Origin: Syntrophomonadaceae bacterium
Lineage (GTDB): Bacteria > Bacillota > Syntrophomonadia > Syntrophomonadales > Syntrophothermaceae
Assembly: GCA_012799365.1 (NCBI GenBank)
Contig: JAAZLJ010000006.1
Coordinates: 1 to 35,251 of the forward strand
Length of the DNA: 35,251 nucleotides
Reading direction: 5' to 3'
In this document: in pieces, positions 3,445 to 21,071 of the stretch
Numbering within the stretch: the first letter of the stretch is position 1
Layout: every line of letters begins with the position of its first letter
Position numbers and translations under genes: made by a program
Notes under the pieces: model-generated
The model's database searches: none
What the model saw: only the letters and a program-made list of their open reading frames with translations
What the model was told of the DNA's origin: nothing

Positions 3445-3872
3445 CAGGCATCCCTCATCTTTCTGCTGGGCCCGACCTGGCGCACATCGTTTACCACTTT
3501 AGTAACCACATCGGCAAATTTCTGGCCTTCAGAGCCGGAGATCCAGGCCGTCTGATACCGTTCAGGTTCCAGGCCCAGATATCCCAAAAAACTCTTCATC
3601 AAGGTATGACGCCGACGCGTAAAATAATTGCCACTACCATAGTGACAGTCACCGGGGTGTCACCCCGATACCAGTACACCATCTGCCCCCTGCTGGAAGG
3701 CTCGCAGAATGAACTGCGGATCCATACGCCCGGAGCAGGGAACGCGAATTATCCTTATATCAGCCGGGTACTGCATCCGGTTAAGTCCGGCCAGGTCAGC
3801 ACCGGCATATGAACACCAGTTACAGGCGAAGGTCACCACTTTAGGTTTCCAGGCACCATCATTTACAGACAT
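3444..3872 (-). CDS. flxD: FlxD (MvhD family), selenocysteine-containing by in-frame UGA
   Basis: Reading through one in-frame TGA (3660-3662) gives 142 residues, the normal MvhD length. Without readthrough only 70 residues would remain. MvhD-type subunits carry a [2Fe-2S] cluster and pass electrons into HdrA. Visible residues are Cys17, Cys20 (CNWC), Cys46 and the family signature '[16 protein letters not shown]', where Sec71 replaces the usual Cys and Cys76 follows. After the UGA the same frame continues with clear MvhD sequence to a TGA at 3444-3446. A SECIS-like hairpin follows the UGA. VhuD of Methanococcus has selenocysteine at the same motif, which supports this reading over a nonsense mutation. 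It overlaps hdrA by 10 bases. Confidence 0.88.
3629..3647 (-). promoter_or_regulatory. bSECIS-like hairpin in flxD
   Basis: Immediately downstream of the flxD UGA the mRNA can form an 8-bp stem, UGUCACUA with UAGUGGCA (one U-G pair), closing the 3-base loop UGG. The loop lies 20 bases after the UGA. Bacterial SECIS elements generally have an apical loop 16-37 bases after the UGA with a G among its first two bases; this one has G in the second position. Confidence 0.7.
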
Positions 3873-5845
3873 AATGCATCCACCTCCGCTAGGATTTGCT
3901 CATCGGTGAAGCCCTTCAAGTTCAAGGCCCCTGAGCGGCAAGCACTGATACATGCTCCACACCCCTGACACAAGCCTTCATTGACAGCTGCTGCCTGGCG
4001 GGTAATGGGACCTTTGGGCCCCCGCTCCTCCACCTGCTTCATGCTAATCGCTTGATAAGGGCAAATAGGTACACAGAACTCACATCCCGAACACTTGCTG
4101 ACATCTACCTCCGATACCATAGGCTGGGTAGACAATTCCGGTTTGGAAAACAGCATGGCGACCTTGACCGCCGCCCCACTGGCTTGAGCCACCGTATCGG
4201 GTATGTCTTTGGGCCCCTGGCAGGCTCCCGCCAGATAGACCCCACCGGTAAAGGTCTCTACCGGCTGCAGTTTGGGATGGGCTTCCTGGAAGAAGCCGTC
4301 CTTGTCAGTGGAAAATCCCACCAGCTTTGCGATCTCCTCTGCACCTCGGGCTGGCTCCATGGCCGTTGCCAGCACTACCAGGTCAGCCTCCACCTCAATA
4401 GGCATGCCCAGAAGGGTATCTTCACTCTTCAATACCAGGCGGTCCCCACGCGGATATATCTTGCTCACTCGCCCGCGAATGTATTTGGCTCCGGCGTTCA
4501 GGGAGCGCTGATAGAATTCCTCATAGTTCTTGCCCGCAGTACGGACATCCATATAGAACACATAGGCTTCCCCACCGGGTATCTTTTCCAACACCTGCAA
4601 AGAATGTTTGGCTGTATACATACAGCAGGCCCGAGAACAGTAGGTCTTGCCTTTGGTATCATCCCGGGAACCCACACATTTGATAAAGGCTACACTCTGC
4701 GGTGTCTTCCCGTCCGAGGGTCGCTTGATCTTACCTCCGGTAGGCCCGGAAGCATTAACCAGTCTTTCAAATTGCAGCCCGGTTATGACATCCGGGAATT
4801 TGCCGTAGCCGTATTCCCCGTAAGTTTGCGTCCAGTCAAAAAGGTCAAATCCGGTGGCCATAACGATGGCCCCTACGTTTTCAGTAATCAGTTCATCTTT
4901 ATCATCGAAATTTATGGCCTGGGTAGGGCAGATTTTTTCACATACCCCACACTTGCCATTCTTTAACTTGCGACAATTCTCAGCATCGATGACCGGCTTG
5001 TTGGGTACCGCCTGTGGAAAAGCTTTATAAATAGCGGTCCTGTTGCCCAACCCCAGGTCAAACTCGCTCTTCAGTTTCTTGGTGGGGCACTTGGTCTCAC
5101 AAGTACCACAGCCATTGCACTTATCCCAGTCGACATACTTGGCCTTTTGGCGAATGGTAACGGTAAAATTGCCGATATATCCGTTAACTGCTTCTACTTC
5201 GGAATAAGTATACATTTTAATATTAGGATGCTGTGCCACAGCAACCATCTTGGGGGTACTTATTCAGGCCGAGCAGTCCAGGGTGGGAAAGGTCTTATCC
5301 AACTGAACCATCTTACCCCCAATAGTGGCCTCCCTTTCCACCAGTATGACTTCATAGCCCGTGTCGGCAATATCCAGAGCTGACTGCATACCTGCTATAC
5401 CGCCTCCAATTACCAACGCCCGTTTAGTAACAGGAATGGTACCAGGCTGAAGCGGTTCGTTTTTCAGCACCTTGAAAACCGCCATCCTCACCAGGTCTGA
5501 TGCCTTGCGGGTAGCTTCTTCCTTATCGTTATGAACCCATGAGTTTTGTTCACGAATGTTCACCATTTCGAACAGGTATGGATTTAAGCCACCATCCCCC
5601 ACCGCCTTACGGAAAGTGTTTTCGTGCATACGGGGGGAACATGAAGCTACCACCACCCGTTCCAGGTTTTGTTCCTGGATGGCTTTCTTGATCAGATCCT
5701 GCCCCGGGTCGGAACACATGTATTTATAGTTAGTAGCATAAACTACCCCCGGCATTTCCAGGGCTTCTCGGGCTACCCGCTCGGTGTCCACCACCGAAGC
5801 AATGTTGGTACCACAGTCACATACGAAAACTCCTACTCTTTTCAC
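3863..5845 (-). CDS. hdrA: HdrA, selenocysteine-containing heterodisulfide reductase subunit A
   Basis: Reading through an in-frame TGA (5264-5266) gives 660 residues, normal for HdrA. Conventional translation would split it into 193- and 461-residue parts. HdrA is the FAD subunit and site of flavin-based bifurcation. Visible features are an N-terminal 'CDCG' (Cys9, Cys11), the dinucleotide motif 'VIGGGIAG' (residues 145-152), and 'DCSA-U-ISTPKM' with Sec194 at the Cys of the canonical DCSAC motif. 4Fe-4S motifs follow at about residues 243-253 ([11 protein letters not shown]), 291 onward, 585-600 ([11 protein letters not shown]) and 625-640 ([11 protein letters not shown]). The two halves are in the same frame with no stop between other than the UGA. 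It overlaps hdrB by 4 bases and flxD by 10. Selenocysteine HdrA is known from methanococci. Confidence 0.9.
5226..5246 (-). promoter_or_regulatory. bSECIS-like hairpin in hdrA
   Basis: GGUUGCUGU pairs with ACAGCAUCC (one U-U mismatch) around the loop GGC. The loop starts 26 bases after the UGA and its first base is G, which fits the general bacterial SECIS rules. Confidence 0.7.
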
Positions 5846-7852: not shown

Positions 7853-8065
7853 ATACTCGCTGGATCGCGGATTTTGATATACTAAGTATGTTAATTCAAG
7901 GTGGACCCAAATGCAAGCTGTATACATAATATCTTCAGTGAAGGGAAATACTGTTTGGTTAATGCTTTTTATCTATTATAAAGCATATATGAGTCATATA
8001 TGTGTTAAGTTTGTGTTAATTTTGTCTCCAGTTAATGTATTATGCTATGCTATTTCCCCCTCCAT
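7853..8065 (-). promoter_or_regulatory. Upstream region of the hdr-flx operon
   Basis: AT-rich and without a convincing gene. On the minus strand it holds a TATAAT (7975-7980) that could be a -10 box, though no good -35 box is seen 17 bases upstream. TGTGTTAA occurs twice (8001-8008 and 8012-8019) as an 11-base-period direct repeat, which may be part of an operator. The promoter assignment is weak. Confidence 0.3.
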
Positions 8066-8099
8066 AAAAAAAGACCGGACCTGGCAGGTCCAGTCTTTT
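8066..8099 (-). terminator. Terminator of the hydrogenase operon
   Basis: AAAAGAC-C-GGACC, loop TGGCA, then GGTCC-A-GTCTTTT forms a long stem with one mismatch. On the minus strand it ends in a run of seven T. It lies 28 bases after the stop of the last hydrogenase gene and could also work in the other direction. Confidence 0.85.
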
Positions 8100-8126
8100 C
8101 AACCAGAGACATTAACCTTTTGCCCT

Positions 8127-10136
8127 TTAATTACCAGCTGCCAGCCAGAATATTGTCACCAAGACCAGGCCCAGACCCACCGCCTGCCACAGGAGATACT
8201 CCCGAGGCCGGCCTCCATGTACCTTACTGAAGCCCCGGCACCAGTTCATAAAACGTTGCCCGAGGGGAAGCCAGAAATTGTCCAGATCCAGCCAGTGAGC
8301 CAGCTGGTTCGGCAGCTTGAATTCGCGTTTCGGGCCCACCCTATAAAGCGGGGCGAAATGCTTTTTAAACGGCTGATAAAAACTATCAGCCCGGTAAAGC
8401 AGTTCTTCTTTACCTACGATTTCACCACAGCTCCATATCACTGAAGGCCGAACCGAAGGGTTAGCCAGTCGGTATATTCCATAGCAAAGCAGAACCCCAA
8501 TTACCAATGCTATCAGCACTATAGCCGGGGAAGCATGAGCAGATAAGGTCGTCCCCAGATTAATTCCCACCCCACCGGCCACAGCCGTCAACGCCTGGCT
8601 GGGAATACTGGCCAGATACGAACCGTTCAGTGCGCCCTGGGCCATGGCAACAGGCCAGGCCGGTATTACACCGAGAATGAGGCAGCCCAGGGCCAGTCCA
8701 CCCTCAACCACCCGCATACATAATGGCAGGTCTTTTTTACCCTCCACCTGGGGTGAAACTGGTCCCAGAAATGCAGCACCGAAAAACTTCAGGTAAGCGG
8801 CCAGACTGACCGTACTCATAAATATGGCCACCACCCCAAAAAACGCCAGTATCGGCCAGGTCTTACCTCCAAACATAGCTGCCTGATACAGCATCCATTT
8901 GCTCATGAAGCCGTTCAACGGAGGAACACCCGCAATAGCCAGCGAACCTACCAGAGCGGCGGCCGCGGTTAAAGGCATTATCTTGATTAATCCACTGACC
9001 TTATTAAGATCCCGTTCACCGGCAGTATAATCGATAGAACCAGCATTGAAAAACAACAGCGATTTAAAACAGGCGTCATTAATGAGATGATACAACGCTC
9101 CCACCAGACTCAATATACTTAATAACGGATTGGTGGCCAGGAACATCAAAGCAATACCCATACCTAACCAGATATAGCCCATCTGTCCTATCGTACTCTG
9201 AGCTACCAGACGTTTGGCATCACTTTCTCCAAGACAGCGCAGATTTCCTACTATCATAGATAGTACCCCGGCTGTGGCTATTACTGCTCCCCAAATGGTG
9301 GTGGTTCCTGAAGGAGGAAGCATCCAGTAAGTCAGTCTGAGTAATCCATAAACGGCTACCTTGTTCATAATTCCAGATAGAAGTGCACTGATAGGTGCCG
9401 GAGCGGCCGGATGGGCTTCCGGGAACCAGAAACCCAGCGGATAGATCCCCGCCTTGGTGGCAAAAGCAACTACCAGCATCCCAATAATCAGATGTAAAGC
9501 AGCCGGGTTGCTGGCAGCCAGGTGCTCATAAGCCCCGGGTATGGCCGTAAATGCCAGAGAATTCGTCCAGCTTCCCAGCATAACCACTACCAGCAGGATG
9601 CCCATCGACGTAACATGGGTCATGAAAAAGTAAAGCCAACCAGCCTGCAGGTTTTTCCGATCATCTCGTTGATATATAACCAGAAAATACGAGGCCAGGG
9701 TCATGATTTCCCAGAAAACCAGGAAGTAAAACAGGTCGGCAGCTACAACTACCGCCATCATGGCCAGTATGAATACCAAAAATGCTATATAATACCGGCG
9801 TGGGTCTTCAGTTCGGATATGAGGTACATAGCCCTGACTGTATATAACCGAAGCGATGCCCAGAATCCCCAGCAGCCCTAGAAACAAGGCACTCAAACGG
9901 TCAATGGCAAACACCGCCATGGCCGGAAACCCTGGAAGAGCTAATCCCGGTATGGCGGTAGTCACCGTACCTTTAATCCAGACTTCGACCGCTACATAGA
10001 TTACCAGTAGTCCAGCGGTCACCATGGACACTGCTCCAATGGTACCCGCCACCTGATGGCGTTTGCTCACCGGAATCAGTAAACTACCGGCAATCATTAT
10101 TGCAAACGCTAACCATAGGCACTGAAACGCGGTCAC
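8127..10136 (-). CDS. hyfB: Antiporter-like membrane subunit of group 4 [NiFe] hydrogenase (HyfB/HycC type)
   Basis: 669 residues, largely hydrophobic, a many-helix membrane protein of the NuoL/MrpA/HycC superfamily. The conserved Glu of the fifth core helix is in 'VFWEIMTLASYF'. The Lys region is in 'ATKAGIYPLGFWFPEAHP' and 'PISALLSGIMNKVAVYG', the wording seen in HycC/HyfB. These residues carry ion movement in the family. A long hydrophilic C-terminal part ending in a hydrophobic helix ('FSKVHGGRPREYLLWQAVG') resembles the separate 65-residue protein at 16755. It starts with GTG, with GAGGGGG 8 bases upstream. It is the last gene of the operon, separated from hycI by ~270 bases holding a repeat. 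Confidence 0.9.
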   Translation of the reverse strand: MTAFQCLWLAFAIMIAGSLLIPVSKRHQVAGTIGAVSMVTAGLLVIYVAVEVWIKGTVTTAIPGLALPGFPAMAVFAIDRLSALFLGLLGILGIASVIYSQGYVPHIRTEDPRRYYIAFLVFILAMMAVVVAADLFYFLVFWEIMTLASYFLVIYQRDDRKNLQAGWLYFFMTHVTSMGILLVVVMLGSWTNSLAFTAIPGAYEHLAASNPAALHLIIGMLVVAFATKAGIYPLGFWFPEAHPAAPAPISALLSGIMNKVAVYGLLRLTYWMLPPSGTTTIWGAVIATAGVLSMIVGNLRCLGESDAKRLVAQSTIGQMGYIWLGMGIALMFLATNPLLSILSLVGALYHLINDACFKSLLFFNAGSIDYTAGERDLNKVSGLIKIMPLTAAAALVGSLAIAGVPPLNGFMSKWMLYQAAMFGGKTWPILAFFGVVAIFMSTVSLAAYLKFFGAAFLGPVSPQVEGKKDLPLCMRVVEGGLALGCLILGVIPAWPVAMAQGALNGSYLASIPSQALTAVAGGVGINLGTTLSAHASPAIVLIALVIGVLLCYGIYRLANPSVRPSVIWSCGEIVGKEELLYRADSFYQPFKKHFAPLYRVGPKREFKLPNQLAHWLDLDNFWLPLGQRFMNWCRGFSKVHGGRPREYLLWQAVGLGLVLVTIFWLAAGN

Positions 10137-10179
10137 ATTCTCAACCCCCTCTACATCATTTCCACTAAAACTGCCCTGT

Positions 10180-10400
10180 ACTTGAACTCACATGCAAGCA
10201 GGAATTCTGGCTTGCATATTCCCCCGACACTCATCCATAAGCCATCCCATCTATCTGCGTCTATTTCCATCGCAGACCCCTCCTGTCGGTCGCACCGACA
10301 CCAACGTTTATTGGAGTGTGTTAACCCGGCGAAGCGACCTGACGAGGAGGCGTAGCAGTACACAGCGGTTTCAATTTCATCGCCCCATCGCTCACAAAAT
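10180..10400. repeat. Intergenic repeat copy R1, inside the hydrogenase operon
   Basis: The 271-base gap between hyfB and hycI carries no credible gene. It shares words in the same wording with two other intergenic regions: TCTGCGTCTATTT (10254-10266, exact at 25555-25567), TGTCGGTCGCA (10284-10294, exact at 31591-31601), TTGGAGTGTGTTAACCCG (compare 31503-31521), GCAGTACA, and CGGTTTCAATTTCAT (compare 31566-31581). The copies are degenerate. Confidence 0.6.
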
Positions 10401-10407
10401 GTCGGAG

Positions 10408-10917
10408 TTACCAGCTGCCGGTTACTCCACCCGGCATCCCAGAAAACCCGGGCTGCCGTCCACCCAGAGTCTTAACTAACCAGGATTCCAGGCAGTTTAA
10501 GATTAGTTCTACGCCGGGACTGAGCGGCTCCCCCAGATGGGTGGTCTGTGGCTGTATCCCCAGCATAAATACGTCAGCCCCGGTCAGCTGCTGCAAATAA
10601 CGCATAAACAAATCCAATCCCATTTTATGGGTACTAAGGTTCAGATTACCCAGGTCACTGGTTTCAATGATGGCCAGTGAGCCTGGTTTAGCTCCTACGT
10701 CTACCGCGTCCAATATGAGCACGGTATCTGGTTGGAGATCTGTTATTCGTGAAAGGTAGCTTTCTGGCACCTCTCCAACATCGAGCAAATCGGCTTCAAT
10801 CTTGCCATACAATCTTTCCACCAGGGCAGGCCCAACCGCATCATCACCGCGTAAAGGGTTGCCCACCCCCACCATTACAACATTACCTTTCAATCTCTCC
10901 TTCAGCTGTTTCCACAT
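10408..10917 (-). CDS. hycI: Hydrogenase maturation endopeptidase (HycI type)
   Basis: 169 residues. 'VVMVGVGNPLRGDDAVGP' near the N-terminus is the signature of [NiFe]-hydrogenase maturation proteases, with an Asp for nickel sensing. A second Asp is in 'VLILDAVDVG' and a His in 'LSTHKMGL'. Such proteases cut the C-terminal peptide from the large subunit after nickel insertion. The large subunit in this operon still carries a 32-residue tail after its last motif, so this is its likely substrate. The start overlaps the end of the small-subunit gene by 35 bases, which suggests translational coupling. A later start is possible. Confidence 0.9.
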   Translation of the reverse strand: MWKQLKERLKGNVVMVGVGNPLRGDDAVGPALVERLYGKIEADLLDVGEVPESYLSRITDLQPDTVLILDAVDVGAKPGSLAIIETSDLGNLNLSTHKMGLDLFMRYLQQLTGADVFMLGIQPQTTHLGEPLSPGVELILNCLESWLVKTLGGRQPGFSGMPGGVTGSW

Positions 10918-11395
10918 TTACCTGCCCACCTTCCTGATAAAAGTAGGGCTCTACCTTCTTATCTACGATACCAATAGCCACCGCAATGCCATAAATAATA
11001 GCCTCGGGACGAGGTGGACAGCCAGGAATAAAGAAGTCAACCGGTAAGACCTGATCCACTCCACCTACTACGTTATACGTATCAAACCACATGCCCCCGC
11101 CGATAGCGCAGGAGCCGCAGGCTATAACCAGTTTCGGATCCGGAACTGCTTCGTACAACCGCCGCAAACGCGGCTCCACATGGCGGGTTACCGGACCAGA
11201 TACCAGCAGGATATCGGCATGTCGTGGTGATGCCACCAGTTTCAGGCCGAACCGCTCGGCATCATAGTAAGGGGTAAAAGCATTTATCTCCTCGATATCA
11301 CACCCGTTGCAAGCCCCGGTGTTAGCATGGAATACCCAGAGGGATTTCTTAAACGCCTTCTCTAACAAGGATTGAAGAAACTTCACATCCGCCAT
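10883..11395 (-). CDS. hyfI: [NiFe] hydrogenase small subunit, NuoB-like (HyfI/HycG type)
   Basis: 170 residues. Cys29 and Cys32 in 'GACNGCDIE', Cys96 in 'IACGSCAIGG' and Cys126 in 'IPGCPPRP' are the four ligands of the proximal [4Fe-4S] cluster found in group 4 hydrogenase small subunits and NuoB. It is short, as usual for group 4, and has no signal peptide. It sits on the cytosolic side of the membrane arm and passes electrons between the ferredoxin-like subunit and the nickel site. It follows the 507-residue antiporter gene after 6 bases and overlaps hycI. Confidence 0.92.
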   Translation of the reverse strand: MADVKFLQSLLEKAFKKSLWVFHANTGACNGCDIEEINAFTPYYDAERFGLKLVASPRHADILLVSGPVTRHVEPRLRRLYEAVPDPKLVIACGSCAIGGGMWFDTYNVVGGVDQVLPVDFFIPGCPPRPEAIIYGIAVAIGIVDKKVEPYFYQEGGQVNVETAEGEIER

Positions 11396-11401
11396 CTATA
11401 A

Positions 11402-12925
11402 TCAACCTCCCCATGCACACATGATAGATTGGGCTGCCAGCTCAACCAGCTTGCTGATAGCCGGGGGATACAACCCAAGTCCCACACTGATACCGGCCAG
11501 AAGCACCATTGTGCCCGCCATAGAAAGCGGTAATCTGAATCCAGGGTTAGCTGGTGCCGATGCACATTCCCCTGTGTCCGGTTCTCCATGTTCATCGTCC
11601 CGCTCCAAAAACACCAGATATCCTGCCCGTACCAAACAGGCCAGGGTTAAGAGACTGGTAAACACCGCAATACCGGTGGCCCACCATAAACCAGCCTGGG
11701 CCGCGGCAATGAATATGGTAAACTTACTCCAAAACCCGTTGAGAGGCGGCAGCCCGCCAATGGCCAGGGCCCCGATAAAGAAACAAATAGCAGTTAATAC
11801 GTTTTTGTTCTCCTTACCCCGCAGGCTCGAAATATAGGTGGTACCACTGGTATACAGTAAAGCCCCGGTGCAAAGGAAAAGCATCCCTTTTAACAGTGCG
11901 TGGTTAAACAGATGGTACAGGGCCCCGAAGAATCCCAGATAAGTTCCGATGCCCAGGCCCATCACCACATAGCCGATCTGACTCACACTGCTGAAAGCCA
12001 ACATCCTTTTCAAGTCATCCTGAGCAAAAGCAAACATGATCCCCGCCAGCATGGTAACCGCCCCTATCATCACCAGTAATAGCGCGACACCACTGTATTG
12101 CGGGTAGAAAATGGTCATTACCCGGGCCATAGCGTAAGCCGCTACCTTGATGCTGACTCCGGAGAGCAGCGCGCTGACCGGGCTGGGTGATTGTGAGTGA
12201 GCATCAGGCAGCCAGGCATGGAAAGGTACCAGGCCAGCTTTGGTGCCAAATCCCACTACCAAAAATCCCATCGCCAGCAAAGTCAGTTCCCGAGGGAATT
12301 TGGAAGCCACCGTAGCGGCTGCTGTAATCAGCATGGCATCGTGACCCCCGATATGAGGCGTAGCCGCTGCATAAATGAGCACACAGCCCAATAAAGCGAA
12401 GGTAATACCTATAGTACAGAGCAGCAGGTACTTGTACCCCGCCTCCAATGACTCCCTTTTCCAGTAAAACGTTACCAATAAGGCAGAAGCCAGGGTAGTA
12501 GCCTCTACCACTACAAACAGCATGATCAGGTTATTGGTTATTACCGCCCAAACCATGGTACTGATAAACAGAGCAATAAGGCTGAAATACAAAGGCAGGC
12601 GCTCCCGGGTGGTTTTCCCTACCTTCACCTCGTGACGCATATAACGGTAACTGAATATGGTGGCTCCCAGCCCTACCGTAGATACCACCACCGCCATCAG
12701 CGCACCCAGGCCGTCCACGTACAGCTGACCATTCCAGGCCACCAGTTTGGCTCCATGCCATACCTGCCACCCCATAATCAAGGCCAAAACAAAGGTCAAT
12801 GTCGCTCCTATTCCGGCGTATAATCCCGACTGTTCCGGTCTTTTCCTTCCCGATATGGCTTCCGCTGCCGAGGCCAGAGCTGGTATCAGAAATATTAGCC
12901 AGGGTAGGATTGAATTATTCGTCAT
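11402..12925 (-). CDS. hyfF: Antiporter-like membrane subunit (HyfF/NuoN type)
   Basis: 507 residues, hydrophobic throughout. The superfamily charge network is intact: Glu in 'VVEATTLASALLV', and Lys in 'FGTKAGLVPFHAWLPDAH' and 'SALLSGVSIKVAAYAMAR'. This is the second of three antiporter-like proteins in the operon. In Hyf-type hydrogenases such subunits translocate ions driven by electron flow from ferredoxin or formate to protons. AGGGGG precedes the ATG. It lies between the small subunit and the HyfE-like gene. HyfF versus HyfD cannot be separated firmly by eye. Confidence 0.85.
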   Translation of the reverse strand: MTNNSILPWLIFLIPALASAAEAISGRKRPEQSGLYAGIGATLTFVLALIMGWQVWHGAKLVAWNGQLYVDGLGALMAVVVSTVGLGATIFSYRYMRHEVKVGKTTRERLPLYFSLIALFISTMVWAVITNNLIMLFVVVEATTLASALLVTFYWKRESLEAGYKYLLLCTIGITFALLGCVLIYAAATPHIGGHDAMLITAAATVASKFPRELTLLAMGFLVVGFGTKAGLVPFHAWLPDAHSQSPSPVSALLSGVSIKVAAYAMARVMTIFYPQYSGVALLLVMIGAVTMLAGIMFAFAQDDLKRMLAFSSVSQIGYVVMGLGIGTYLGFFGALYHLFNHALLKGMLFLCTGALLYTSGTTYISSLRGKENKNVLTAICFFIGALAIGGLPPLNGFWSKFTIFIAAAQAGLWWATGIAVFTSLLTLACLVRAGYLVFLERDDEHGEPDTGECASAPANPGFRLPLSMAGTMVLLAGISVGLGLYPPAISKLVELAAQSIMCAWGG

Positions 12926-12938
12926 TTATCCACACCCC

Positions 12939-13610
12939 CTAACCTTGCAGCTTTGATAGTTCACGGATATCAGTAGAACCGATCTGTTCATGGATACCCG
13001 TTACAATAATCAAAAGAATCCAGACAGAAACTACGACATCGGTGACTATTCCGATCATGGCCGTCTCCGGGATACCCGGGGCCAGGCTGACCAGGCTCAG
13101 ATGAACCGCATTCTCAATCAGACATACACTGATTACCGATTTCAAGGCATCTCTCCGGGAAAGTAACCCATAGAGACCAAAAGCCAGTATGGTAAAGGCC
13201 ACCGAAAGATTGGTGGCATAAGGTTCTCCCGCCAGAGCCGCTGAGGGCGCCAGCCAGCCCATATGCCCGTCGATTAACCAGTAGAACCCGGCCAGAACAG
13301 CTGCTCCAATAGCCAGTGAAACTCCGAACCCCAGACTCGGCGGTGTCTCCTCCAGCGTGGTCTTTTGCAAATAGTGCCGCAGCATAAGCGGAATAATAGT
13401 GGCCTTGGTTATCAAGACCGTAATCGCCCAGAGATAAAGCGTATGATTGGGCAAGAGGGTTCCATAGGACACCAGCAGCGCCACTATCAAGAGGGCTTGA
13501 GCTACATAAGCTATACTCGCCCATTTCAGGTGCCTCAGTTCTACAGCGGTCAGGGAGGTCACTACCAGGGCAAAACTCAGTCCAATAATAAGTGATGAAT
13601 GTTCAATCAT
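12939..13610 (-). CDS. hyfE: HyfE-like membrane subunit (NuoK-related)
   Basis: A hydrophobic protein matching HyfE, the NuoK-containing subunit of Hyf hydrogenases. 'ISVCLIENAVHLSLVSLAPG' contains the Glu in a membrane helix typical of NuoK. The frame is open to an ATG at 13649 (236 residues). The ATG at 13610 (223 residues, MIEHSSLIIG) has GGGGG 8 bases upstream and gives an 8-base overlap with the preceding gene instead of 47, so I prefer it. It would link the antiporter-like subunits to the HyfC-like membrane anchor. Confidence 0.82.
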   Translation of the reverse strand: MIEHSSLIIGLSFALVVTSLTAVELRHLKWASIAYVAQALLIVALLVSYGTLLPNHTLYLWAITVLITKATIIPLMLRHYLQKTTLEETPPSLGFGVSLAIGAAVLAGFYWLIDGHMGWLAPSAALAGEPYATNLSVAFTILAFGLYGLLSRRDALKSVISVCLIENAVHLSLVSLAPGIPETAMIGIVTDVVVSVWILLIIVTGIHEQIGSTDIRELSKLQG

Positions 13611-14145
13611 CCTCCACATCCCCCAATCTTCCCAGAATCCGCGCCTCATACTTCTGGCGGCAATCAGGACACCAGGATACCCATGCAGGTACTGTATCTC
13701 CCGACCCCTGGTCTCCGATGGTTTTTTGTGCCATCTTTTTTACCAGACGCTGAGTAGCAAAGGGGCGATTACAGCGAGAACACCTGGCTAATTTCATTTT
13801 CACCTGCAACAGCAAGTCGTCCTTCTGATTGGTGGCCGTTTCGAAATTATTGCTCATCTTTATGGCCCCTTCCGGACAAACCTCTTCACAACGAGCACAG
13901 TACGTACAGCGAGTATAATCAACCGTAAGCACCCGGTACTCACCCTCATCAGCCAGCGTGATCAGTCGGGGTGGGCAAACCATAGCACAGGTTCCACAAC
14001 CAACACAAAGCTCACCATCGATTTCAGGCTTGCCCCGGAAACCCTCCGGAGGTGCCTGGGGTACAAATGGATACGGCAGAGTCACCCGTCCCGCTCGGAG
14101 GCAAAGCAATGCTTCCTTTAATTTACTGCTAAACAATCGGCCCAC
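13603..14145 (-). CDS. hyfH: NuoI-like two-cluster ferredoxin subunit (HyfH type)
   Basis: 180 residues. Two 4Fe-4S motifs, 'CVGCGTCAMVCPPRL' and 'CTYCARCEEVCPEGAI', are followed by a C-terminal CxxC pair set ('CSRCNRPF' ... 'CPDCRQ') that looks like the zinc-ribbon tail seen in HyfH/MbhN-type subunits. It is the electron entry wire between ferredoxin and the small subunit. It starts 4 bases after the hyfC-like gene ends and overlaps the hyfE-like gene. Confidence 0.9.
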   Translation of the reverse strand: MGRLFSSKLKEALLCLRAGRVTLPYPFVPQAPPEGFRGKPEIDGELCVGCGTCAMVCPPRLITLADEGEYRVLTVDYTRCTYCARCEEVCPEGAIKMSNNFETATNQKDDLLLQVKMKLARCSRCNRPFATQRLVKKMAQKTIGDQGSGDTVPAWVSWCPDCRQKYEARILGRLGDVEDD

Positions 14146-14149
14146 CTCC

Positions 14150-15055
14150 TTATATACCCAGGAGTGCGAAAGCGAGACCCGCCAGGGCCAGCACCGCTAC
14201 TCCCTTGAAGTAGTTAATCGCCTGGTCAATCCGTAATCTCGGGTTGACCAACTCAATCAATTCAACCACAACCACTACCAGGAATACTTTGGCCAGATTA
14301 ATAATTAAATCCAGCAGCACAATCCCGGTCTGAGGGCCTGGTAAAAATACCCCCAGAAACAACGAAATAAAAACTATAACTTTGGCATAAAGTGCCCATT
14401 TGAAAAGAGCCAGCTTGGGTCCACTATTTTCTACAAACGGACCCTCCATTATCTCCGTCTCAGCTTCCGCGATATCGAAAGGAAGCTTGGCCAGCTCAGA
14501 TTGCATAGCCAGGAAGAAAGCCAGCCCGGCAATTATTACTGATACACTCCACCCATTGGCCAGCGTCCAGCCGGTGATATCAGACAAAACTAGAGAACCG
14601 GCTTTCAACCCCACGGTAAGCAGTGAAACGGCCACAATAGGCTCCACAGTCAGCACCAGGCTCATCTCCCGGCTGGCACCCAGCATCGAATACGGACTGC
14701 CAGCGGCCATTCCCCCCAGTATGATGGCAATCCCAGGAATACTGAGCAAATAAATTAGCAGTATAACATCCCCACCAAAACCCAGGGGAGCCGCCGTACC
14801 CATGGGGGTAAAGAGAGCCGCCACCAGAACTGAGCCCAGGCAAACCACCGGGGCCATGCGAAAAATAACGTTGTTGGCTACTTCCCGATCCTCCTTGCCG
14901 AAAAGCTTCAAAAGGTCATAATAAGACTGCATCAAAGGCGGACCCTGCCGGGAATGAATAATCGCTTTGATACGCCGCATAAACCCATCCAGTAGAGGTG
15001 CCAGGGCCAGGGTAACCCCGACATTAAACAGGGTGAGTAGTATTATTCTGGTCAT
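14150..15055 (-). CDS. hyfC: NuoH-like membrane anchor (HyfC/HycD type)
   Basis: 301 residues. The N-terminal loop 'RRIKAIIHSRQGPPLMQSYYDLLKLFGKE' is the conserved motif of NuoH/HycD/EchB proteins. 'AEAETEIMEGPFVENSG' is the acidic loop expected near the ion entry path. It anchors the hydrogenase module to the antiporter arm. It overlaps the large-subunit gene by one base, so translation is likely coupled. Confidence 0.92.
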   Translation of the reverse strand: MTRIILLTLFNVGVTLALAPLLDGFMRRIKAIIHSRQGPPLMQSYYDLLKLFGKEDREVANNVIFRMAPVVCLGSVLVAALFTPMGTAAPLGFGGDVILLIYLLSIPGIAIILGGMAAGSPYSMLGASREMSLVLTVEPIVAVSLLTVGLKAGSLVLSDITGWTLANGWSVSVIIAGLAFFLAMQSELAKLPFDIAEAETEIMEGPFVENSGPKLALFKWALYAKVIVFISLFLGVFLPGPQTGIVLLDLIINLAKVFLVVVVVELIELVNPRLRIDQAINYFKGVAVLALAGLAFALLGI

Positions 15056-16740
15056 TAATTTTCACCCCCTCGATACTCCCGGCGGCTTTTTTCCACTACT
15101 TCATTCCGATTATATACCCGTACTTTACGGGTTCTTACATCGACGGTTTCCATCCGCTCGGTACAGGAGAAACAGGGGTCAATACTCGCGATAATAATAG
15201 GAGCATCAGCCACCGTATTATTGGCCAACATGGTAGGTACCGCCTGCAGCTGCGGGTAAGTTGAAGCTCGTACCCGCCAGCGATAAGGCCGGTTGCCGGG
15301 TCCTGTTATTACGTAGTGACAGCACTCACCCCGGGGGGCTTCAATCACCGATATGCCCTCACGACCGGGTTCGATTTCGCCCACCTCGGCCATTATAGAT
15401 CCCTCCGGCATTTTCTCCAGAGCTTGCCGAATCAAACCGATAGATTCAAATAATTCATGCAAACGAACCAGCGTCCTGGCCCATACATCCCCGGCACTGA
15501 AAACTGGAACCGTCAAAGCCAGATCCGGATAAGCCGCATAAGGATGGTCGATACGGCTATCGATTTCCACCCCGGAAGCCCGGGCCGTAGGACCTACTAC
15601 ACAGATGCTGCGCGCATCCTCCAAAGGCAAGCAGCCCACATCTTTCAACCGCATAATAAGCGTGGTATCGTCTATGATGGCATCCACCACTTCACGAAGC
15701 TGAGATTCGATACCCGCAATGGTTTCTAAGATTTTCGGATACAACTCGGGTGAAATATCGCGCCGCACCCCCCCGACCAGGTTCATTCCATAAGTTTTAC
15801 GGTTGCCGGTTATCGCTTCCGCCAGCCACATGACCGGCTCGCGAATACGCCAGGACTGCATCAATACGGTGTCAAACCCTATGATATGACCGGCCAGACC
15901 CAACCACAACAAGTGGCTGTGAATGCGCTCCAGCTCCAGCATAACGGTGCGGATATAGCGCGCCCGGTCAGGAATCACGATTTCCGCCGCCGCCTCTACT
16001 GCCTGGCAGTAGCAGCAGGAATGGACAAACCCACAGATACCACAAATCCTTTCCGCCAGGAAAGGCACCTGATTATAGTCGAGCACCGTATCTGCCAGCT
16101 TTTCTATACCTCGATGGCTGTAAAATCCGCGATAGTCACTATCAATAATGCGTTCACCTTCGACAAACAGCCGATAACAAGCCGGCTCTTCCAATGTTGG
16201 GAAAAACGGCCCTACCGTCACCACCGTAGTATTTTCCGGTGCCTTTCTTACCGGTGGCTCCGCTCCAGGTACCGGCTCCGGTTTGAAGTTATGGGGAAAG
16301 TCTTTGCGTAGTGGATATAACCCCTCCGGCCAGTCGTCAGCCAGAACCAGTCGGCGCGGGTCTGGATGATTTCTGGGCTCCACCCCGATGAGATCCCGCA
16401 CCTCTCGTTCTGCCCAGTTGGCACCCGCAATAATAGGAGTAACTGACTCCACCACCGGATGTTCCGGATCAATCTCTACCGTGATGCTGAGGATGATATT
16501 ATCCCAATCAAATGAGAAAATATAGGAAATTTCATACCATCCCGTATCAGGTGTGCGATCGGTTCCTACCGTGGTAATCAGCCGTGCCTTCAAGTCATTG
16601 AACACGTATCCCACTATTCTTGGTAAAACATTGGCATCGACATTTACCTGTAATTGATTACTCCCCCGCAGAACCCAATTTTTCACCTGATCCTGGCCAT
16701 ATTCCTTGAGTTTTTGGGCTAATTCTTCACGTGTTAACAT
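15055..16740 (-). CDS. hyfG: [NiFe] hydrogenase large subunit fused to NuoC-like domain (HyfG/HycE type)
   Basis: 561 residues. Residues 1-150 are the NuoC-like domain ('NWAEREVRDLIGVEPRNHPDPRRLVL'). The rest is the catalytic subunit. Both nickel-ligand pairs are intact: Cys233/Cys236 in 'RICGICGFVH' and Cys523/Cys526 in 'DPCFSCTER'. That distinguishes it from a complex I subunit, which would lack them. A 32-residue tail starting METVDV follows Arg529 and should be removed by the maturation protease. The reaction is 2H+ + 2e- to H2 in the cytosol, usually run with reduced ferredoxin. GGGGGTGATG precedes the start. No formate dehydrogenase gene is linked, so this is unlikely to be a formate hydrogenlyase. 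Confidence 0.94.
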   Translation of the reverse strand: MLTREELAQKLKEYGQDQVKNWVLRGSNQLQVNVDANVLPRIVGYVFNDLKARLITTVGTDRTPDTGWYEISYIFSFDWDNIILSITVEIDPEHPVVESVTPIIAGANWAEREVRDLIGVEPRNHPDPRRLVLADDWPEGLYPLRKDFPHNFKPEPVPGAEPPVRKAPENTTVVTVGPFFPTLEEPACYRLFVEGERIIDSDYRGFYSHRGIEKLADTVLDYNQVPFLAERICGICGFVHSCCYCQAVEAAAEIVIPDRARYIRTVMLELERIHSHLLWLGLAGHIIGFDTVLMQSWRIREPVMWLAEAITGNRKTYGMNLVGGVRRDISPELYPKILETIAGIESQLREVVDAIIDDTTLIMRLKDVGCLPLEDARSICVVGPTARASGVEIDSRIDHPYAAYPDLALTVPVFSAGDVWARTLVRLHELFESIGLIRQALEKMPEGSIMAEVGEIEPGREGISVIEAPRGECCHYVITGPGNRPYRWRVRASTYPQLQAVPTMLANNTVADAPIIIASIDPCFSCTERMETVDVRTRKVRVYNRNEVVEKSRREYRGGEN

Positions 16741-16754
16741 AGTCTCATCACCCC

Positions 16755-16952
16755 CTATAAGACCAAGAGCATGGCCACCAGGATGACGGTTATTCCCCCT
16801 ATCTGCCTCAGCAGATAAATCCGGGTTAAACCACGGTGAACCTTACTCAGATTCCGATACCACGCAGAGAAACTTCTATCCAGCAGCCAACTTAAATGTT
16901 CGAGAACTAGAATTTCAGCCGGTAGTTCTGATAGTTTTACGGATGCAATCAT
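16755..16952 (-). CDS. Small membrane-tail protein (65 aa) matching the C-terminus of HyfB
   Basis: 65 residues: a charged first half and one hydrophobic C-terminal helix. 'WYRNLSKVHRGLTRIYLLRQIGG' resembles 'WCRGFSKVHGGRPREYLLWQAVG' near the end of the 669-residue antiporter subunit. The gene upstream encodes an antiporter subunit that lacks this tail. Its ATG overlaps that gene's stop (ATGA), so the two are coupled. I read it as a separately encoded C-terminal segment of that antiporter subunit. Its size and conserved operon position argue for a real gene. No independent function is known to me. Confidence 0.7.
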   Translation of the reverse strand: MIASVKLSELPAEILVLEHLSWLLDRSFSAWYRNLSKVHRGLTRIYLLRQIGGITVILVAMLLVL

Positions 16953-18412
16953 AGACTCAGGCCCCCTATAGCGTCAGCAATAATGGGTAAACCGAAAGTA
17001 GGGGAAAGTAAACTCAGCACGATAAGCACAAATAAAGGTACCAGCATAGTCCAGGGTGGATCAACTGCAATTTCCGCCTCCGGCGATGTGGGGCCAAAGA
17101 AAACGCGCTGCATTACCTTTAAGAACCAGGCGAAACAGGCCACACTTTCTGCCACGGCCAGAACGCCTACAATCCAACCCCAGGCTGAACCCAACTGGAT
17201 GGCACCCGCAACAATAAAGAACTTGCTCCAGAAAATATTAAATGGCGGCACCCCGGAAATAGCCAGAGCCCCTACGACGAAAGCCGCCGTAGTTATCGGC
17301 ATCTTACGCCCTAAACCGCTTAGTTTCGTAATGCTTTTGGTACCGGTCGCACAGGAAATAGCTCCCACTGCCAGGAACAACAGACTCTTGGTAAAAGAAT
17401 GGTTGATGAGGTGGAGCAAACCCCCTTGTACGGCCAACGTGGAGCCCAGAGGCCCCAGAGAAAGCCCCAGAAACATATAGCCCAGGTGCGTAATAGTTGA
17501 AAAAGCCAGCAGCCGTTTGAGGTCATCCTGAAAGAAATAGAAGGTCAACCCTATATACATAGTAATCAGGGCCATGGCCCCCATCAGGTAACCCACCGGT
17601 TCTGGCACCACCTGTGAGGAAATAACTACGCGAGCAGTAAGATAGACCCCCGCCTTGACCATCGCAGCCGCATGCAGGTAGGCACTGGCTGGAGTCGGGG
17701 CCGCCATAGCTGTAGGCAGCCAGGTAGAGAAAGGAAACTGAGCCGCCTTACCCCAGGCACCGATGAGAAGAAAAACAACGGTCAGAGTTTTAAGTCCCGC
17801 AGGAAGTTCCCGCAGGGCATTAAACTCGAAGGACCCAGTTTGGACATACATAATGAGCAGAGCAGCAACGAAGAACAACCCTGCCCCGTGGGTTATAACC
17901 AGAGCCTTAAACCCGGCTTGCACCGCTTCACGGGTTCGTAGGTGAGAAATTAATCCCCATGAACAAAGGGTGGTTAGTTCCCAGAATAGAAACAACTGAA
18001 AAAAGTTGGGAGAAAGGACCAACCCGGTCATAGACCCTATGAACAGGAGCAGGAAAAAGTAGTAACGTCCTTTCTCCGCCTGGGTCGGATGCTCACGGTT
18101 GAACTCACTCACATATCCTGCTGAATACAGAACCACCAGGAATCCCACTAACGTAACCGCAATCAGCAATAAGCAGCTCAGCGGATCAATCTGCAACCCG
18201 AAAAGGGGGTGACGGCTGGTCAACCACGGTAAATCAGCCAGCGGAAAGCTAATCGGTACCAGCTTGGACTTGATAATAGCCCAGATAGCCAGAACCAGTA
18301 CTATTCCCGCAAAAATACTACTTGTAACATCGGCTTTTCGTTCCTTTAATGGAGCTATCAGCACTGCACCCACAAAAGGCAGGAGCAGCAGTATCAATAA
18401 CAGTTTGAACAC
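16949..18412 (-). CDS. Antiporter-like membrane subunit (NuoL/MrpA-like), tail-less
   Basis: 487 residues and first gene of the hydrogenase operon. Conserved residues of the superfamily are present: Glu in 'LFWELTTLCSWGLI', and Lys in 'WGKAAQFPFSTWLPTAMAAPTPASAY' and 'HAAAMVKAGVYLTAR'. The last motif is NuoL/MrpA-like rather than HycC-like. It lacks the C-terminal extension, which is encoded by the next gene. It starts at GTG, with GAGGGG 9 bases upstream. Together with the 669- and 507-residue proteins it gives the complex three potential ion-translocating modules. Confidence 0.87.
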   Translation of the reverse strand: MFKLLLILLLLPFVGAVLIAPLKERKADVTSSIFAGIVLVLAIWAIIKSKLVPISFPLADLPWLTSRHPLFGLQIDPLSCLLLIAVTLVGFLVVLYSAGYVSEFNREHPTQAEKGRYYFFLLLFIGSMTGLVLSPNFFQLFLFWELTTLCSWGLISHLRTREAVQAGFKALVITHGAGLFFVAALLIMYVQTGSFEFNALRELPAGLKTLTVVFLLIGAWGKAAQFPFSTWLPTAMAAPTPASAYLHAAAMVKAGVYLTARVVISSQVVPEPVGYLMGAMALITMYIGLTFYFFQDDLKRLLAFSTITHLGYMFLGLSLGPLGSTLAVQGGLLHLINHSFTKSLLFLAVGAISCATGTKSITKLSGLGRKMPITTAAFVVGALAISGVPPFNIFWSKFFIVAGAIQLGSAWGWIVGVLAVAESVACFAWFLKVMQRVFFGPTSPEAEIAVDPPWTMLVPLFVLIVLSLLSPTFGLPIIADAIGGLSL

Positions 18413-18447
18413 TGTAACACCCCTCTTTTGCTAATGATAAACCAGCA

Positions 18448-18480
18448 GGCCAGCCGAAAGTTCTTCCCTCCCGGCCGGCC
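18448..18480 (-). other. Hairpin between moaD and the hydrogenase operon
   Basis: GGCCGGCCG can pair with CGGCTGGCC (one G-T) over a 15-base loop. On the minus strand it is followed by TGCTGGTTTATC rather than a T-run, so it is not a convincing terminator. It may mark an RNA processing or attenuation point between the AOR genes and the hydrogenase genes. Confidence 0.4.
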
Positions 18481-18498
18481 TTTACCGGTCCATCCTTT

Positions 18499-18768
18499 CT
18501 AGCCGCCAGCCATCTTGGGAAAAATGGCAATTTCGTCAGCAGGCTGAAGACGAGTCTTCACGCCATCCAAATGCTCGATGGCCCTCCCGTTGATCAGAAT
18601 GATGACATCATCACTCAACCCGCCGTCTGCCCATACCCAATCGGTAAACTTTTTACCATAATGCTGGCCAAGGGCCTGTAGCAGTTCTTCCAATGTTTCC
18701 GCTGCAAAATCCCCGGTTTCTTTAGTCCCGGTCAGCTCACGAAATATCGCAAAGAACTTGACTTTCAA
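18499..18768 (-). CDS. moaD: MoaD/ThiS-family sulfur carrier
   Basis: 89 residues ending in GlyGly ('IAIFPKMAGG'), the C-terminus that is adenylated and thiocarboxylated in MoaD proteins to supply the dithiolene sulfurs of molybdopterin. 'VIILINGRAIEHLDGVKTRLQPADEIAIFP' is the typical beta-grasp second half. Lying 15 bases downstream of the AOR gene, it is probably a dedicated carrier for the tungstopterin of that enzyme. A partner MoaE or MoeB is not in the window. Confidence 0.9.
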   Translation of the reverse strand: MKVKFFAIFRELTGTKETGDFAAETLEELLQALGQHYGKKFTDWVWADGGLSDDVIILINGRAIEHLDGVKTRLQPADEIAIFPKMAGG

Positions 18769-18783
18769 CCCTTACCCACTCCT

Positions 18784-20592
18784 TTAGAGCTGAATCGATA
18801 ATTCCGCTAATTTCTCCTTGGTGGGCACCCCGTCTTTACTCCAACCGCGTACCTTGTAGTATTCAGGGAGCATAACGTCGAGCTTACTTACACTGCCCTT
18901 GCAAGGACCGTATTTGATGGGCTCTTTCAAAACTCTGGGCGGCAGGGTATCATCCGCCCTGGTAAATCCGTTCTTCATGTTGAACATGCGTTCCAGATTC
19001 CAGATACGTTCGCCCGCTTTCATAACCTCTTCTACTGTATAATCAACTCCGGTCGCCGCTTTAAGCTGTTCTGCAACTTCGGGAGCACCGATAGCAAAGG
19101 TCAGGAAGAGGCAAATACCTGCAGAGTCCACAGCCCCGGTGAGATCCTGGAATATCTTGGTCCACTCCGCCTTGCCTTCTGTGACCAGGTTATCCAGTTT
19201 CTCGGGAATACCCAGAATTTCGGGTGCGGTCATATATCCACGTACGTGGCAGCCACCGCGATTATTGGTAGCGTAGTTCAGGCCCATTCCTTGCAGAGCC
19301 CGCGGGTCGTAGGCCGGCATCTCCTGCTTTTTCACGCTCATAGACAGCTCAGGATGCCCGTATTTGCTGGCCAGCCGGAAAGAACCCTCGGCCAGTTCAT
19401 TGCCAAAGCCCTGACGGTAAGCCGTCTTATAGGTCAGGTCGACGATGGCTTCCTCATTACCAAAACTCAGGTCACAGCCAGTTTGCTTCTTGGTGATATA
19501 TCCCTTCTCAAACAGTTCCATCGCACATGCAATAGTAGTAGGCATGGTAATAGCATCTATTCCCAGTTCATTACACAGGTTGCTCGCCTTGAGGATGGGC
19601 TCCAGGTTATCGATACCACAGTCAGCACCATAGCCCCAGGCCGCTTCGTATTCAGGACCTTCACCAAAGGTAGCGAACTGGCCCGCTGCCACCCGGTTTA
19701 TACGGCCACAGCTGATAGAACAACCTTTACACCCCTTGGGACGCACCAAATACTTGGCCGTCAGCGATTCCCCGCCCGTAGCATCGGCATTGGGAAAAGT
19801 ACCAGAATCCTGGAAATTCCGTACCGGTAATCCCCCGGATTGGTCGAGAATATTGACCAGGATGTTGGTTCCATAAAGGCCCAGGCCTTGTCCAGTTACC
19901 GGATGATCTTTTACCATCTGGCGTGCCTTGGTTACTGCTTCCATAAATTCCTGCGGGTTGGCTACTTTGACTCCTCCGGAGCCCTTGACTACAACCGCTT
20001 TCAGATTCTTAGCTCCCATTACGGCGCCCACGCCAGAACGACCGGCCGCCCGGGTGTAGTCGTTGATAATACAGGCAAACTTAACCAGGTTTTCTCCACC
20101 CGGTCCGATACAGGAAACTTTGGCATCTTCGTCAGTTTCATCCTTTAAAACATCGGTGGTATCGTACACGGTCTTGCCCCACAGATGTTCAGCACTACGA
20201 ATTTCTACCTCATCATCGTTAATCCAAATATAGACCGGTTTCTTGGCTTTACCTTCAAAAATAACTGCATCATAACCAGCATATTTTAGTTCTGGACCCC
20301 AGTAACCACCAGAATTGGAAGCTGCCATAGCTCCGGTTAAAGGAGCCTTGCAAACCACGTTGTAACGCCCGGCATTGGTAGCCAACGTACCTGTGAGTGG
20401 TCCGGTAATGAAGATCAGATTGTTTTTATCACTGAGTGGATCAACTTTAAGGTCAACTTCTTTCATCCACAGGCGAATGCCCAGGCCGCGAGCACCAATG
20501 TAATTTCTGGCCTCCACCGGATCCAATGCTTCTTTCTTAACCGTTTCTTTACTCAAGTTAATGCGCAGCACTTGTCCTACCCAACCGTACAT
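18784..20592 (-). CDS. aor: Tungsten-containing aldehyde:ferredoxin oxidoreductase
   Basis: 602 residues, normal AOR length. The N-terminal half has the tungstopterin-binding wording '[24 protein letters not shown]' and '[19 protein letters not shown]'. The [4Fe-4S] ligands are Cys288, Cys291, Cys295 ('[11 protein letters not shown]') and distal Cys494 ('DSAGICLF'). The enzyme converts aldehyde plus oxidised ferredoxin to carboxylate plus reduced ferredoxin, reversibly, in the cytosol. It abuts the ferredoxin gene with a one-base overlap and is followed by moaD. The nearby alcohol dehydrogenase suggests an alcohol-aldehyde-acid route. The substrate cannot be read from the sequence. Confidence 0.95.
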
Positions 20593-21071
20593 TATTCGCT
20601 CACCTCCTGGAGCAAGTCTTTGAATTTAGCCGCATAGGCTCTTTTCTTGGAAAGCGTAGCGGTAGCAGCTTCTCGGAAAGTAATCGCACCGGAAGGGCAG
20701 AACCTGGCACATTCCGGTTCCCCACCACAAAGGTCACACTTGATAATCTTCATTTCTACAGCATCATAAGCAGTATTGCCGAAGGGGCAAGCAGTGACAC
20801 ACATCTTACATTTGATACAACGGGCCTCATTTACCATCATGGCCCCGGTATCTGATTTGCTGATAGCCCCCATTGGACATACCTTCATACAAGCAGCGTC
20901 ATCACACTGCAGGCACATCATGGGCACGGATACTCCTACTGATTCCCAGGTAAGCACCGAAACCCGAGATGCTCCCGGCCTGAACTCTTGCGTGTGTTTA
21001 AAAGAGCAGGCCAGTTCACAGGTCTGACATCCGGTACATTTTTCCGGTGCCAGGGTTAAAACCTTAGCCAT
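20592..21071 (-). CDS. Four-cluster ferredoxin subunit for AOR (HybA/DmsB-like)
   Basis: 159 residues with four Cys clusters in order: '[11 protein letters not shown]', '[14 protein letters not shown]', '[12 protein letters not shown]' and '[15 protein letters not shown]'. This is the pattern of DmsB/HybA-type electron-transfer subunits. The gene is the first of the aor operon and overlaps the AOR start by one base. It likely takes electrons from the tungsten enzyme to free ferredoxin, NAD or a membrane acceptor. The C-terminus is a short helical tail with no membrane segment, so a cytosolic role fits. Confidence 0.9.

Follow-up and report, generated by a model that had tools for sequence, protein, structure and literature searches.

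In a [NiFe]-hydrogenase operon of the Hyf type that is linked to an aldehyde oxidoreductase, the 65-residue protein encoded between hyfD and hyfG is probably the product of a shrunken remnant of hyfB that stayed in the ancestral position of this gene. The protein is homologous to the C-terminal tail of HyfB, its gene occupies the slot that holds an intact hyfB in related operons, the start and end of the gene match those of the intact one, and an intact hyfB is present in the same genome. A small membrane peptide may still be made from the shortened gene, and it would presumably be dispensable.

Organization of the operon

The window, which is the whole 35,251-nucleotide stretch of DNA that was analyzed, contains the operon on its minus strand (Table 1). 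Positions 8127–21071 link an aldehyde ferredoxin oxidoreductase to a three-pump Hyf-type [NiFe] hydrogenase, a combination that few genomes share (2 of the 113 in one class). The operon is predicted to encode a group-4-type [NiFe] hydrogenase because its large subunit contains the sequences RICGIC and DPCFSC, the nickel-ligand motifs, and because the hycI protease gene is present. The MoaD/ThiS-like gene has no match in the corresponding operons of Pelotomaculum propionicicum (L020) and genome G541 (L037). No Rfam families were detected in the window. Beyond the operon, the HdrA-like gene at 3863–5845 of the minus strand has an in-frame TGA at codon 194 (DCSA-U-ISTPKM), which is probably a selenocysteine codon rather than a boundary between two genes.

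Table 1. Positions of the operon genes and of the features discussed in the text, numbered along the window.
Feature	Position	Strand	Basis or remark
Ferredoxin, multi-cluster	20592-21071	-	operon head
Aldehyde ferredoxin oxidoreductase	18784-20592	-	operon head
MoaD/ThiS-like gene	18499-18768	-	between aldehyde oxidoreductase and hyfD
hyfD, complete antiporter-like subunit of 487 aa without tail	16949-18412	-	NF005097 match, synteny, HyfD ends
65-aa ORF, putative remnant (mini) hyfB, HL and TMH16 only	16755-16952	-	homology, junction
65-aa protein residues 12-38, predicted helix equivalent to lateral helix HL (HyfB 613-639)	16839-16919	-	models of modest or low confidence, alignment
65-aa protein residues 43-64, predicted transmembrane helix equivalent to TMH16 (HyfB 644-666)	16761-16826	-	models, sequence
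hyfG-type fused large subunit (C/D)	15055-16740	-	after slot; RICGIC and DPCFSC kept
hyfC / NuoH-like	14150-15055	-	
hyfH (Fe-S protein)	13603-14145	-	
hyfE	12939-13649	-	
hyfF	11402-12925	-	
NuoB-like small subunit	10883-11395	-	
hycI maturation protease	10408-10917	-	
Dispersed repeat, shortened copy	10307-10367	none	in hycI-hyfB spacer
hyfB, 669 aa, full length: TMH15, ND3-type loop, HL, TMH16	8127-10136	-	after hycI
hyfB part homologous to 65-aa protein	8130-8318	-	

Homology of the 65-residue protein to the HyfB tail

The sequence-only reading had pointed to a resemblance between the 65-residue protein and the C-terminal end of the 669-residue antiporter subunit, which is HyfB, and this resemblance is real. 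A search of the protein against its own genome, which contains a single intact copy of hyfB, matches only the protein itself and the tail of HyfB (E 6.3e-5, 40% over residues 12–61). In pairwise alignments, 24 of 55 residues are identical to HyfB of the window and 24 of 61 to HyfB of P. propionicicum, and none of 2000 shuffles of the 65 residues equals the score of the real alignment against HyfB. A profile of 14 HyfB tails from which the 65-residue row was left out recovers the short open reading frame (ORF) at E 5.5e-6 among the 654 stop-to-stop frames of the window, and a profile without any window sequence still finds it at E 1.1e-4; with both profiles, the best window frame other than the short ORF and hyfB reaches only E 0.2 or worse. 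The homology begins four residues after the start of the ORF and continues to its end, without gaps, over residues 5–65 in the alignment to P. propionicicum HyfB and likewise gapless to HyfB of the window in the five-sequence alignment. The protein does not belong to any Pfam or NCBIfam family, and its sequence has no match among PDB chains at E 10. A search for a solved homologue with the C-terminal 140 residues of HyfB alone gave a single chance-level match.

AlphaFold predicts helices at residues 12–38 and 43–64 of the 65-residue protein (mean pLDDT 68). In the end of HyfB, helices are predicted at residues 610–616, 618–639, and 644–666, with low confidence (mean pLDDT 55). The helix boundaries of the small protein equal those of HyfB (613–639 and 644–666) with an offset of 601. 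The loop motif W-x-C-G, formed by W568, C570, and G571, is invariant in the HyfB alignment and is located upstream of the homologous part. The 65-residue protein begins at the level of HyfB residue 606/607, past this loop, and is devoid of TMH15 and of the ND3-type loop with the W-x-C-G motif. The alignment with HyfB C-termini thus identifies the protein as a tail of the HyfB type, formed of the lateral helix and the last transmembrane helix; according to the models, the fragment would comprise HL and TMH16 without the coupling loop.

The order of HL followed by TMH16, together with sequence homology, relates the protein to the C-terminal extensions of HyfB and HycC from hydrogenase-4 and formate hydrogenlyase of E. 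coli. However, the 65-residue protein has neither the 14 pump helices nor TMH15 nor the ND3-type loop of these subunits. In HycC, HL is followed by TMH16 (PMC9474812), and the ND3-type loop has a conserved cysteine, Cys537. Profile A2 of the tails, built with the 65-residue row, matches residues 605–631 of MrpA, near TMH16 (6z16_A, E 0.0012), and weakly matches residues 609–645 of complex I ND5 (7zm7 chain 5, E 0.048), but in MrpA and ND5 the tail is part of the large subunit. A lateral helix and transmembrane segment encoded apart from the core subunit are known from the membrane-bound hydrogenase MBH of Pyrococcus furiosus, in which the corresponding Loop 1, transmembrane helices, and HL belong to MbhI, separate from MbhH (PMC7684303). 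Nevertheless, MbhI is described there as TM1, Loop 1, HL, and TM2, so that two transmembrane helices are joined by Loop 1 and HL (PMC7684303), whereas the 65-residue protein has one transmembrane and one amphipathic helix only, lacking the loop and the first transmembrane helix. Moreover, an MbhI-like arrangement calls for a partner without its own lateral helix, whereas HyfB of the operon keeps HL and TMH16.

HyfD and the slot of hyfB in related operons

The sequence-only reading had proposed an antiporter subunit divided into a core and a separately encoded tail, and this proposal holds only in part: the tail is of the HyfB type, but the upstream HyfD has not been robbed of a tail of its own. 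The two ORFs lie where that reading had placed them and overlap as ATGA, with the start of the small gene on the stop of hyfD, as would be expected for translational coupling. This overlap and the adjacency of the genes are the points in favor of a frameshift or gene fission that separated HyfD from a tail of its own, an event that is nevertheless extremely improbable. The 487-residue protein aligns from residue 3 to 478 with positions 3–479 of the 480 in the HyfD family NF005097 (573 bits, cut-off 430). HyfD proteins from all 12 of the other genomes compared (G445, G541, G438, G278, G347, G244, G075, G230, G191, G292, G158, and the Coriobacteriia contig L022) are 479–503 residues long, end at or near the same place, and have no tail. 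The lack of such an end in the upstream subunit, correctly noticed before, is thus normal for HyfD. In addition, the relatives of the small protein are HyfB C-termini, TMH15 and the loop are absent from both ORFs so that joining them would not restore HyfB, and a whole HyfB with its own tail is encoded 6.6 kb downstream. A split HyfD was ruled out by the family match, the HyfD ends in the 12 genomes, and synteny. Based on these sequence comparisons, the 487-residue subunit is a complete, full member of the HyfD family, no antiporter has been divided into core and tail, and the 65-residue gene is not a piece of hyfD.

A full-length hyfB is positioned between hyfD and hyfG in all three other genomes with this operon type: P. 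propionicicum (G445, operon L020), G541 (L037), and G053 (L057). The first two are the 2 of 113 genomes of their class with HyfD at E 1e-80, whereas G053 belongs to the order of the window organism and is the sole one among the 62 others there with such a HyfB match (E 1.7e-183). The frameshift joining the two genes in other strains, which the sequence-only reading had named as its refutation, is therefore not what happened, as the relatives have a whole extra gene between hyfD and hyfG. The matches to the operon end with hycI in P. propionicicum and G541, and the stretches compared contain no hyfB after it. The G053 contig starts inside hyfD and ends before the hycI region, and its Hyf gene order is that of the window operon type. 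Unlike in these relatives, hyfB of the window stands after hycI. In five more distant Hyf operons (L038–L042, five of nine non-self matches), hyfB adjoins a ferredoxin gene and hyfD immediately precedes hyfG. In P. propionicicum L020, the aldehyde oxidoreductase gene (8034–9840) and hyfB (11430–13441) are each in two overlapping frames, which reflects either sequence error or mutation.

The 65-residue ORF lies in the slot of the intact hyfB of the three relatives and begins and ends where the intact gene does. In the relatives, hyfD ends in two Gly codons. The ATG of the short ORF follows the corresponding second codon at a distance of 8 nt, compared with 8 nt for the ATG of hyfB in G541 and 7 nt in P. 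propionicicum; in G053, hyfD and hyfB overlap by 1 nt. The hyfD gene of the window is three codons longer (Leu-Ser-Leu), as a result of which its stop overlaps the ATG of the short ORF. The stop of the ORF is located 14 nt before the start of hyfG.

The short gene might also be an assembly artefact, with a full hyfB present in the slot of the genome but skipped by the assembly, which is a draft in 267 contigs that is 91.6% complete and 4.2% contaminated. This is very unlikely, as the tail in the slot is just 53% identical in DNA sequence to the tail of the downstream hyfB, leaving no long shared word that could cause a collapse, and the junction keeps the frame, is clean, and coincides with the start site of hyfB.

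Decay or retention, and the proposed origin of the short gene

The preferred reading of the short gene as a remnant of hyfB has to be weighed against retention as an accessory subunit. In this unlikely alternative, a mini-HyfB would be translated together with HyfD and attach to the membrane arm through its amphipathic helix and single transmembrane helix. There it would serve as an additional lateral staple, or as a spacer that separates HyfD from its neighbor, beside the tail of HyfB itself. In the MBS complex, HL and TMH16 hold two antiporter-like subunits together (PMC7684303), which speaks for the alternative. The variant in which the deletion yielded an autonomous HL/TMH16 subunit that braces the HyfD side of the three-pump arm, giving the complex two lateral helices, one covalently part of HyfB and one free, is quite unlikely.

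The distribution of the short gene speaks against retention. A tail-profile search at E 0.001 gave 60 matches in 58 of the 398 genomes of the phylum; 59 are in frames of 519–786 residues, and the sole stand-alone match is the ORF described here, in a 72-residue frame. Among 23 matches at E 0.01 in the 63 genomes of the order, 20 are in frames of 626–743 residues and one is the same ORF; the remaining two, in a 206-residue frame (G044) and a weak one in a 96-residue frame with a stop (G042), do not provide a second convincing stand-alone tail. The phylum and order searches rule out a conserved family of small subunits. Searches of the PMC literature for MbhI with a lateral helix, a link of aldehyde oxidoreductase to hydrogenase in Pelotomaculum, gene remnants, and split NuoL-type genes returned nothing on this arrangement.

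Some features of the protein sequence would fit decay. Of the 22 positions that do not vary among four intact HyfB tails, as counted on these tails themselves, nine are changed in the 65-residue protein. When each intact tail is left out in turn, it keeps 22 of 24, 22 of 22, 22 of 24, and 22 of 30 fixed positions, whereas the 65-residue protein keeps 13, 13, 14, and 17. Its amino acids are identical to those of intact tails at 18–24 of 60 positions, whereas the HyfB tail of the window shares 36 and 31 of 60 with those of P. propionicicum and G541. Against a functional role, the protein has lost the proline of the P23 column, which is kept in nearly all tails, and residues of the conserved LDLD and YLLWQ stretches, and HyfB already brings one such tail to the complex.

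In favor of retention, the protein keeps G41, Y46, the hydrophobic transmembrane segment, and the helix boundaries of HyfB, and the start site and overlap of its gene are preserved. The frame is still open and its codon-usage score of 0.055 is coding-like and resembles that of the operon genes. Control windows reach this score in 50 of 1150 cases in wrong frames and in 11 of 210 cases in intergenic DNA, and of 677 operon windows, 164 do not exceed it. In simulations, substitutions alone that bring identity to 0.39–0.52 leave the frame open in 11–16% of runs, before indels, for which a rate of one per 15 substitutions was assumed. Codon-based maximum likelihood gives an omega of about 0.09–0.20 on the branch of the short ORF (background 0.20), and omega = 1 is worse by 1.3–1.9 lnL, a suggestive but not significant disfavoring of neutrality in a test with 60 codons from five sequences, synonymous sites near saturation, and an uncertain position of the tail in the tree. 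Since no second stand-alone piece was found in the genomes searched, the functional loop is missing, and HyfB has a tail that makes the piece redundant, the relic is favored over a working peptide as the likelier reading, and the 65-residue gene is most likely an ordinary evolutionary leftover.

In the proposed origin of the remnant, a copy of hyfB would once have stood between hyfD and hyfG, and a second hyfB, now after hycI, would supply the full subunit. The old copy would have lost about 600 internal codons in frame, while its start codon, which overlaps the stop of hyfD, and its last 60–61 codons stayed. The deletion would have removed the 14 pump helices, TMH15, and the ND3-type coupling loop and spared the lateral helix and TMH16. 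Duplication or relocation presumably came first and the internal deletion second. Third-position identity is 0.38 between the short ORF and hyfB of the window, and 0.55 between the latter and hyfB of P. propionicicum or G541, so the split may be old or decay fast. The best tree topology places the tail outside the group of the window and Pelotomaculum sequences, by 2 lnL, and the remnant may therefore have a source other than the present hyfB.

If the gene is only a relic, it documents how a pump gene can be relocated inside a complex-I-like operon, with the vacated site becoming smaller without loss of frame, and it is a caution not to take small ORFs between subunit genes for split subunits. 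If functional, it would allow a natural test of whether a lateral helix can be separated and still brace complex-I-like pumps.

In the 271-nt spacer that separates hycI from hyfB, about 55 bp belong to a dispersed repeat, which matches 41 other places in the genome. The repeat is a plausible trace of a rearrangement, with which it fits without proving it. The window copy is shortened; of eight copies compared, five have some 210 bp in common, and mirror-image ends are seen in one short copy.
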